Positions 7,113 to 36,442 of a DNA stretch of 38,274 nt are shown piece after piece. A model generated the notes under the pieces. It was not told where the DNA came from. It worked only from the letters and a program-made list of their open reading frames with translations, and made no database searches. The first letter of the stretch is position 1, and each line of letters begins with the position of its first letter. Where the stretch lies: NCBI GenBank assembly GCA_902774035.1, contig CACYHA010000028.1, positions 1-38,274 of the forward strand, in the 5' to 3' direction. The stretch comes from Oscillospiraceae bacterium. GTDB taxonomy: Bacteria > Bacillota > Clostridia > Oscillospirales > Acutalibacteraceae. The position numbers and the translations under genes are program-made.

Positions 7113-7175
7113 AATTGAGAATTGAAAATTGAAAGTTGAAAATTATAGCTTTTTCTCAATTTTCCATTTTCAATT
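7113..7175. repeat. Short heptamer-bounded inverted element (E1)
   Basis: The left arm is AATTGAG, AATTGAA, AATTGAA, AGTTGAA, AATTATA (7113-7147). The right arm, on the minus strand, is AATTGAA, AATGGAA, AATTGAG (7155-7175). The core is only about seven bases, so the whole unit can fold into one long AT-rich hairpin. It fills the gap between the DUF4867 and isomerase genes and ends just before the next ribosome-binding site. Confidence 0.8.
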
Positions 7176-7192
7176 TCTACCGGAGGTTCATC

Positions 7193-17880: not shown

Positions 17881-17917
17881 GTAAATCACTTCCTAAACTT
17901 ATAATTGGGGGGATCGG

Positions 17918-18116
17918 AATTCGGAATGCGGAATGCGGAATTCGGAATTAAGGTCGCGGGAAAAGCGCAATAAATCTGCGGGTTCGTGCCGCGAAAAGAA
18001 TCACTTTTGCGTTTTCGGTTCGTCGATTAGAAAAAACAACGCTTCGCAAACTCTTTTCACGCAGCGCGCAGCGCGGCGTTCTGCAATTCGGAATTCATCA
18101 TTCCGATTTCCGAATT
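17918..18116. repeat. Heptamer-bounded intergenic element (E2)
   Basis: The left arm is AATTCGG, AATGCGG, AATGCGG, AATTCGG, AATTAAG (17918-17952). The right arm, read on the minus strand, is AATTCGG, AAATCGG, AATGATG, AATTCCG, AATTGCA (18082-18116). The 129-bp core starts with GTCGCGGG and contains TTCGTCGATT; element E4 at 34257 has both at comparable places. It lies between mcsB and clpC. Confidence 0.85.
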
Positions 18117-20708: not shown

Positions 20709-20798
20709 GGGCAAACCTCCCGGGGAATTGAAATTGGTCAGCGGTTAGCGGTTAGCGAAGGGGTCGTCGGTAAAAGCGAACGTGCAAAGCCTTCCGCA

Positions 20799-21677: not shown

Positions 21678-21817
21678 CAGCAGTTTCCTTTCACGTTCGC
21701 TTTTACCGATGCCCCGCTCGCAAACTGCTAACCGCTAACCGCTGACAGCGAACGGTCTTCCGATCCCGCATCCCACACTATTCTTCACCGCCGCACCCCG
21801 CGCTATGCAAAAACGAA

Positions 21818-34239: not shown

Positions 34240-34256
34240 TTGGAGCACCTCCAAAA

Positions 34257-34464
34257 AATTGAAAATTGAATGAATGAAGAATGGAGAATGGAGAATGAAG
34301 GTCGCGGGGAGCGCAGCTGCAATCTCCGTGTTTTTTCCGCAAAAAGAGGGGCAGAATGTCATCACGTTCGTCGATTGTATGAAAGCGCTTTTTCAACACA
34401 GCCTCGGCGCATCGCCGCAGGCGGCGCCCCCTCATTCTCCATTCTTCACTCTTCATTCTCCATT
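34257..34464. repeat. Heptamer-bounded intergenic element (E4)
   Basis: The left arm is AATTGAA twice, then AATGAAG, AATGGAG, AATGGAG, AATGAAG (34257-34300). The right arm, read on the minus strand, is AATGGAG, AATGAAG, AGTGAAG, AATGGAG, AATGAGG (34430-34464). The 129-bp core starts GTCGCGGG and contains TTCGTCGATT, as in E2. It lies between purB and murD and holds no gene. Confidence 0.87.
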
Positions 34465-35926: not shown

Positions 35927-36442
35927 AATTAAGAATTAAGAATTAAGAATTAAGAATTAAGAATGGAGAATTGAGGCAAGGTTGGCAAGGAAAAGCTGTG
36001 CAATATGACGGAACAAAGATCAAGCAAGGCGTGCGGCCGTATTTGTGCGGTGTTGCCTTATTTTTCCTTTGAAGTTTTGACGATAGAGGATAAGATTTTG
36101 TATATTTCCGAAGAATCATTCAGTAAGCTTTCAGCCTCATTATCGTTCAAAACCTCCGTTGCTTTCAATAGCCGGAGCCAATAAACCGTTTCGGCTGTTT
36201 CTTTCAAAGCAATACTCATTTTAGAAATAAAGTCTGCTTTGCTCTGTGCATGCTGCGCTTCTGCAACATTTGCGCCAATGCTTGTGCCGCTTTTCAGAAT
36301 TTGCTTTGCAAACGTATATGCTTTCTTTTCTTTGATCAAGTATTCATTTAAAAAATAGATGCGCACAGCAAAATCAAAGCTCTTTTTCTCAATGACGTTT
36401 TCCGCAGAATAATTCTCCATTCTTCATTCTCCATTCTTCATT
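35927..36442. mobile_element. Heptamer-bounded element carrying a four-helix-bundle gene (E5)
   Basis: The left end is AATTAAG five times without a break, then AATGGAG and AATTGAG (35927-35975). The right end, on the minus strand, is AATGAAG, AATGGAG, AATGAAG, AATGGAG, AATTATT (36408-36442). Between them lies one gene, whose ATG is part of the fourth right-end heptamer. The interior is clearly more AT-rich than its purB and guaB neighbours. The end structure is that of the gene-less elements E1, E2 and E4, so this could be the autonomous form. Mobility is inferred, not shown. Confidence 0.6.
36058..36420 (-). CDS. Four-helix-bundle protein (23S rRNA IVS / bAvd family)
   Basis: A 120-aa all-helical protein of the S23 / intervening-sequence family, which also includes the Avd accessory protein of diversity-generating retroelements. 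The family core is visible: KKSFDFAVRIYFLNEYL, LKSGTSIGANVAEAQHAQSK (normally SI..NI.EG), ISKMSIALKETAETVYWLRLL. These proteins form pentamers with a basic, nucleic-acid-binding surface. ATG 36420 is preceded by GGAG, both within the heptamer array. Codon and base use are AT-richer than around it, a sign of acquisition. No reverse transcriptase or rRNA gene is nearby, so a DGR or an rRNA intervening sequence is not supported. Confidence 0.9.
   Translation of the reverse strand: MENYSAENVIEKKSFDFAVRIYFLNEYLIKEKKAYTFAKQILKSGTSIGANVAEAQHAQSKADFISKMSIALKETAETVYWLRLLKATEVLNDNEAESLLNDSSEIYKILSSIVKTSKEK

Follow-up and report, generated by a model that had tools for sequence, protein, structure and literature searches.

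The window analysed here, a stretch of 38,274 nt (contig C28), belongs to a 2.3-Mb draft genome of 48 contigs that is 85% complete. Near its right end guaB, a 120-amino-acid open reading frame and purB are arranged in the same direction, the two flanking genes being assigned by NCBIfam to IMP dehydrogenase (guaB) and purB. The open reading frame (36058–36420, minus strand) encodes a four-helix-bundle protein of the S23 family (TIGR02436) and is enclosed by two arrays of 7-nt repeats, hereafter termed arms. Arm A, 3′ of the gene (35927–35975, plus strand), comprises seven heptamers, namely five AATTAAG, one AATGGAG and one AATTGAG; the repeat finder ended this arm at 35972 and sequence reading extended it to 35975. 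A non-coding interior (35976–36057, by sequence reading) lies between arm A and the stop codon. Arm B, 5′ of the gene (36412–36442, minus strand), reads AATGAAG AATGGAG AATGAAG AATGGAG AAT, or ATTCTCC ATTCTTC ATTCTCC ATTCTTC ATT on the forward strand, and thus presents five AAT cores at 7-nt spacing that are inverted relative to arm A. Arm B includes both the ATG (36418–36420) and, eight bases before it, a GGAG. The preliminary description of this locus had reported seven left heptamers, five of them AATTAAG in an unbroken row, four or five inverted right heptamers, and a single gene between them whose start codon and ribosome-binding site are formed from the right array; each of these points was borne out, the right array containing four heptamers and the core of a fifth. 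The window also carries tandem 7-nt intergenic repeats of the kind that we take to be short tandemly repeated repetitive (STRR) heptanucleotide sequences. Exact runs of three AATTAAG units occur at two loci in the genome, a count for which the reversed unit provides no contrast, since reversing AATTAAG only rotates the repeat.

The protein encoded between the arms matched PF05635 (E = 2.4e-27; 95.6 bits against a cut-off of 33.8), TIGR02436 (1.2e-30; 105.9 bits against a cut-off of 24) and PDB entry 2rld (5e-35), in agreement with the four-helix-bundle identity originally proposed for it, and scored 14.5 against the NCBIfam Avd model, below the cut-off of 80. When its AlphaFold model (pLDDT 93.8) was searched with Foldseek, good matches were obtained to the S23 structures 2rld (TM 0.90) and 2gsc (TM 0.80). 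The Avd protein of diversity-generating retroelements (DGRs; 4dwl, TM 0.75) and a DGR ribonucleoprotein (8ub7, TM 0.74) have a similar four-helix fold and were matched with weak E-values near 0.1; the Avd match (E = 0.08) ranked under pectin-methylesterase inhibitors from plants, which share the general fold. Each of the solved S23 structures, 2rld and 2gsc, consists of five chains, and five four-helix bundles are mentioned in the title of the publication on 2gsc, as cited among the references of PMC10053308. By analogy with these structures, the window protein is probably a homopentamer.

The architecture seen in the window, an S23 gene within matching inverted period-7 arrays, was found around 88 of 188 testable S23 genes, compared with 1 of the 549 far ORFs that these loci contain, far ORFs being those of at least 300 bp that lie at least 700 bp from any S23 gene; with duplicates removed, 86 of 185 S23 genes were armed. 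The preliminary description had proposed testing whether inverted heptamer arrays surround genes for this protein more frequently than random genes, and they clearly do. Heptamer arrays were also seen next to unrelated genes, where matching inverted pairs were almost never found. Two sets of loci contributed to these counts. Set 1 consisted of 100 regions chosen among the matches listed (80 belonging to the genus, the remaining 20 to different families of the same order), together with the window and L005, and contained 47 armed genes among 104, against 0 of 240 far ORFs. Set 2, the best 80 of 582 relatives from a scan of named genomes with one peptide pattern, which consequently favours the KQ..R..TS clade, allowed 84 of 86 S23 genes to be tested, of which 41 were armed (39 of 81 without the contigs shared between the sets, L189 being the same contig as L088 and L214 the same as L107), against 1 of 309 far ORFs. 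The loci are not statistically independent, as L005 and L068 are related insertions and relatives in general share descent.

A period of seven was the only one common around S23 genes. Other periods scored in 0 of 104 S23 genes in set 1 (periods 4–6 and 8–12) and in at most 1 of 84 in set 2 (other periods from 4 to 12), and size-matched ORFs in 0 of 66 and 1 of 83, respectively; ORFs less than 700 bp from an S23 gene scored in 4 of 173 cases in set 2. In an initial test of set 1 the controls were ORFs of at least 450 bp; once those at edges had been dropped, 104 of the 111 S23 genes and 356 of the 394 controls were left, and 3 of these 356 controls scored. Inverted repeats of any kind with a score of at least 15 surrounded 113 of 188 S23 genes and 5 of 549 far ORFs. 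Where arrays were present on both sides of an S23 gene, an inverted 9-mer was shared between them in 47 of 49 cases in set 1 and 41 of 44 in set 2.

S23 genes were present in 47 of the 59 near genomes searched (our own and 58 relatives), with up to nine per genome. The second S23 gene of our own genome (C15, L005), the only other one found in this 85%-complete draft, has the same architecture as the first. According to record titles, the armed loci of set 2 derive from Bacillota, Bacteroidota, a Pseudanabaena, Ignavibacteria, a Neomarinimicrobiota, a Desulfohalobiaceae, a Victivallales and a Bdellovibrio metagenome-assembled genome (MAG). Nine plasmid loci (Treponema, Anabaena, three Nostoc, Aulosira, Chlorohelix, Bernardetia and Planktothrix), drawn from 28 S23-bearing plasmid records, all had period-7 arrays in their flanks, the right array of L173 being recognised by eye. 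Viral contigs gave four pattern matches with no relative among them, and phage records two tblastn matches. The strict arm test found no detectable arms at 100 of the 188 S23 genes, and in the N-Q..R..TS clade arms were detected in only 3 of 31 (28 of 31 unarmed), suggesting that this clade may have been domesticated.

Two classes of heptad could be distinguished. In the main class (class 1) the heptad is A, A (83%) or G (17%), T, G (54%) or T (44%), followed by three unconstrained positions (N-N-N), and in the class that we refer to as ‘SNIAEG’ (class 2) it is A-G-T-N-N-N-C/T. Arm length peaked at 31–33 nt on either side of the gene. Counting three-base cores (AAT/AGT/AAC in class 1 and AGT/AGG/AGC in class 2), we found exactly five in-phase cores in 108 of 164 class-1 arms, compared with a maximum of three in shuffled class-1 segments, and in 11 of 20 class-2 arms; five cores were also present in 55 of 111 arrays distant from any S23 gene. 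A stricter count of full four-base boxes made four the commonest number (91 of 164) and five the next (37), because that count stops at the edge of the array, where the last box is often cut. Within single elements the left and right arms had a median identity of 92% (n = 34), compared with 67% across elements (1122 pairs), although the former figure is raised by the selection of arms for a shared 9-mer, a selection that applies equally to the analyses of arm length, G-U changes, covariation and core counts.

Arms and proteins varied together. Protein identity was correlated with arm similarity across 92 elements (Mantel r = 0.50; 0 of 2000 permutations), and AAT[GT] boxes were absent from all 10 class-2 elements but present in the class-1 elements that share their genomes (G004, G005, G019 and G029). 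This is the pattern expected of a binding protein that co-evolves with its sites, and it supports recognition of the arms by S23; on the strength of these sequence correlations, we infer that the S23 protein binds the arms.

Comparison of orthologous sites revealed presence and absence of the elements. Seven guaB–purB gaps were read, namely our own (562 bp including the S23 element) and those of six relatives in which guaB lies beside purB. The gap is near-empty in G011 (28 bp including the stop codon, with no array) and contains one array in G022 (93 bp). It is occupied in G012 (279 bp) and G009 (369 bp) by non-coding inserts between inverted AATTCGG arrays, in G001 by a 605-bp non-coding insert with an AATTCGG-type array on the purB side only, and in G027 by a different gene (843 bp). 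None of the six relatives holds an S23 gene without heptamers in this gap, contrary to the possibility raised in the preliminary description that the gene would always be found there unaccompanied. G028 and G018 have a different gene ahead of purB; in G019 purB is preceded by an array and has an S23 gene on its other side. On the Nostoc plasmids pNPM1, pNsp_c and p057_G, an element is located within a DNA-cytosine methyltransferase gene that is annotated as a single gene of ~760 nt in four other plasmids; the insert replaces ~320 nt of the gene, so that there is no clean cut. The element also separates cas2 from cas1 in Anabaena cylindrica and Nostoc TCL26-01 (L167 and L168), and these genes adjoin in two other Nostoc plasmids. 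No target-site duplication was evident at the two Nostoc sites, and the purB–guaB relatives are too diverged for one to be judged. We also noted that the annotated cas1 of L168 is 972 nt long, compared with 1041–1044 nt in L260 and L261, and ends within the element, and that the annotated cas1 of L167 (1053 nt) overlaps an arm.

Heptamer arrays are abundant in these genomes. The degenerate four-box pattern AATKNNNAATKNNNAATKNNNAATK matched 132 times (69+63) in our own 2.3-Mb genome, compared with 2+2 matches to the reversed pattern, which exceeds what chance would give. Among the places listed of these 132, there were 11 pairs of neighbouring arrays less than 2 kb apart, of which seven were inverted, one was direct and three were neither. 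One gene-less pair lies in the window itself, where a non-coding element of the same kind as the S23 element (34255–34464) is bounded by inverted arrays at 34255–34300 and 34433–34464 and has the interior GGTCGCG...GGCGCATCGCCGCAGGCGGCGCC; inserts whose interior resembles it occupy the guaB–purB gap of three relatives, in two of which the insert has an array at either end. Three other array sites in the window are worth recording, namely a minimal gene-less hairpin at 7113–7176 in which a short loop joins two inverted heptad arrays (AATTGAA/TTCAATT type), a pair of class-2-like inverted GGTTAGC/GCTAACC arrays about 1 kb apart at 20736–20757 and 21719–21743 with no evident S23 gene between them, and a single TCGGAAT array at 17914–17949.

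The number of arrays was correlated with the number of S23 genes across the 59 near genomes, our own included (Spearman 0.47). At least 10 array matches were found in 28 of 47 genomes with S23, the other 19 having fewer despite S23, and in 3 of 12 genomes without it. Across 249 Bacillota genomes, S23 was present in 11 of 13 with at least 20 array matches compared with 34 of 236 others (Fisher 1.3e-7, ignoring phylogeny); the thresholds of 10 and 20 were set after the counts were seen, and one of the 11, G268, has an S23 match under the family cut-off. The two array-rich genomes with no S23 match, G285 (135 array matches) and G195 (28), may have a different arm-reading protein or may have lost S23.

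A search for recent identical copies at unrelated sites within one genome found none. The near-identical pairs that it returned were duplicated rRNA operons, and these revealed a link to the intervening sequences (IVSs) of rRNA genes. Four Bacillota genomes contain S23 genes within complete 23S rRNA genes (Rfam RF02541, one operon each), the S23 match in that of G238 being in two pieces. The stems of these IVSs are imperfect heptad arrays, for which lag 7 was the best among lags 3–12 in all eight arms, with a score reached by 0 to 22 of 1000 shuffles, and the two arms were inverted complements in all four cases (0 of 200 shuffles each). Since their stems are complementary heptad arrays, rRNA IVSs look like one niche of the heptad-armed S23 family. 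Exact 23S rRNA motifs were absent from the window and from the loci up to L262, which indicates that the arm statistics given above do not derive from IVSs. The IVS of Coxiella burnetii has been described with a 28-bp terminal stem and three tandem GACAGAT heptamers ahead of the S23p start (PMC4990558), and excision of IVSs by RNase III is reported in the same paper; in the portion of it available to us, heptamers are not presented as common to S23 loci in general. Like these IVSs, the window element has an S23 gene between complementary terminal arms, but it sits between protein genes, guaB and purB. As its location was tested and is not within an rRNA gene, we do not class it as an rRNA IVS but as a relative of these sequences that occupies a new site. 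The earlier suggestion of an undescribed element family is supported, with the word undescribed to be qualified, as the rRNA IVSs already described share the architecture.

Taken together, we consider it probable (roughly 70%) that the window element is one copy of a widespread kind of selfish insertion element, which we call an S23 heptad element, with the layout arm, S23 gene, inverted arm, in which S23, as a pentamer, reads the five heptads of an arm, rRNA IVSs occupy one niche and gene-less array pairs are non-autonomous. Each arm would be a short array of mostly five in-phase cores, and S23 a homopentameric ring of four-helix bundles with one subunit per heptad, such that a ring would accommodate a single arm of five boxes, probably in the form of single-stranded DNA or RNA; this proposal draws on the agreement between five cores per arm and five subunits. 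The protein would then protect or mobilise elements with matching arms, gene-less pairs would be copies served by S23 in the same manner, and copies that landed in 23S rRNA genes would be the classical rRNA intervening sequences. Miniature inverted-repeat transposable elements (MITEs) and REPINs are also gene-less copies with inverted ends; S23 heptad elements differ from both in ending in tandem heptad arrays and carrying no transposase, and no target duplication was evident at the two Nostoc sites.

A rival account, tentative and clearly less probable than the selfish-element reading, is that these are RNA-processing elements, in which the arms form a stem around S23 that is cut by RNase III, S23 chaperones the excised hairpin, and spread is passive, through recombination or rare insertion. 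The shared design of the rRNA IVSs, with the RNase III excision reported for them (PMC4990558), favours this account. The arms of the window element do pair in its RNA fold, although the effect is modest (z = −2.05; 2 of 100 shuffles folded as well). Moreover, armed S23 genes are strongly biased in orientation: among 84 with two callable neighbours, based on crude ORF calls, 63 were sense to both neighbours and 4 antisense to both. Unarmed S23 genes are equally biased, however (48 sense and 3 antisense, of 72), so that the bias may reflect read-through expression only. Mismatches between arms likewise gave no sign of selection for RNA pairing, with no preference for G-U changes on the sense strand (72 vs 67).

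We regard as improbable a second alternative, in which the arms are operators through which S23 represses its own and neighbouring messages, the whole being a domesticated and immobile module. Such autoregulation would fit the position of the start codon and ribosome-binding site within an arm and the covariation of arm and protein, but it leaves unexplained the second, inverted arm, the insertions in a methyltransferase gene and in 23S rRNA, the presence and absence at orthologous sites, and the gene-less arm pairs. Less probable still is a retroelement, in which S23, like Avd, would serve a reverse transcriptase acting in trans to copy element RNA to new sites. The fold likeness to Avd and the DGR ribonucleoprotein, and the sense bias, would be in keeping with this idea. 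A reverse transcriptase (PF00078) was found in only 13 of the 59 near genomes, however, by which a general dependence on the enzyme is rejected and a retroelement as a general requirement largely refuted. RVT_1 had no match in our own draft genome (G000, 85% complete), which therefore does not show the enzyme that accompanies Avd in a DGR, and PF00078 none in the array-rich genomes G028, G001, G019 (97% complete) and G030 (98% complete), the last of which also gave a high count with the reversed pattern (55+42). With reverse transcriptase set aside as a general partner, any mobilising chemistry would come from the host or from an S23 activity not yet recognised. Finally, that the arrays are ordinary slippage repeats among which S23 genes merely happen to lie is scarcely credible, given that, common as arrays are in our own genome, matching inverted pairs are concentrated at S23 genes, arms covary with protein class inside one genome, and five cores are the mode.

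The selfish-element reading can be extended to the heptameric repeats of other bacteria. Repeats of this kind have been described in Xanthomonas (GGGAATC) and Nostoc (GGGGA(C/T)T) (PMC4692102) and in Beggiatoaceae (TAACTGA) (PMC4679880), and, in the text of these papers available to us, they resemble the window arrays in having a period of seven, a mostly intergenic location and some inverted pairs. The regions beside the Planktothrix S23 gene contain AATCCCC, which is complementary to GGGGATT, a repeat of the Nostoc type, and the Beggiatoaceae repeat, which becomes AGTTATC on the opposite strand, agrees with the class-2 heptad. The terms ‘S23’ and ‘four helix’ do not occur in the main texts of either paper; the Beggiatoaceae study called for identification of the repeat-binding protein (PMC4679880), a role for which S23 is a candidate at heptad arrays such as these. 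We found no link between S23 and heptamers beyond the Coxiella IVS in the open-licence PMC literature searched, which does not prove its absence from print, and the accessible parts of PMC5041132 and PMC5088731 have no text on this question. The broader proposal, that S23 heptad elements are an unrecognised selfish class whose sole protein is a non-enzymatic homopentameric ring reading five boxes per arm, one per subunit, and that they explain both the heptameric repeats (cyanobacterial STRRs, TAACTGA and GGGAATC) and the origin of IVSs, is in our judgement evenly poised between right and wrong. If it were true, the richness of bacterial genomes in heptameric repeats, the function of the S23 or ‘four helix bundle protein’ family and the origin of rRNA IVSs would become a single story.

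Two variations on the usual arrangement were seen among the S23 loci. Two oppositely oriented arrays lie upstream of the S23 genes at L060, L080, L092, L095, L099, L103, L104, L180, L201, L234 and L245, many of the arrays across these loci being of the TTATTCA/TGAATAA type. At L249 (5001–6086), from a Thiodiazotropha MAG, three S23 genes are arranged in tandem, with arrays only outside the cluster.
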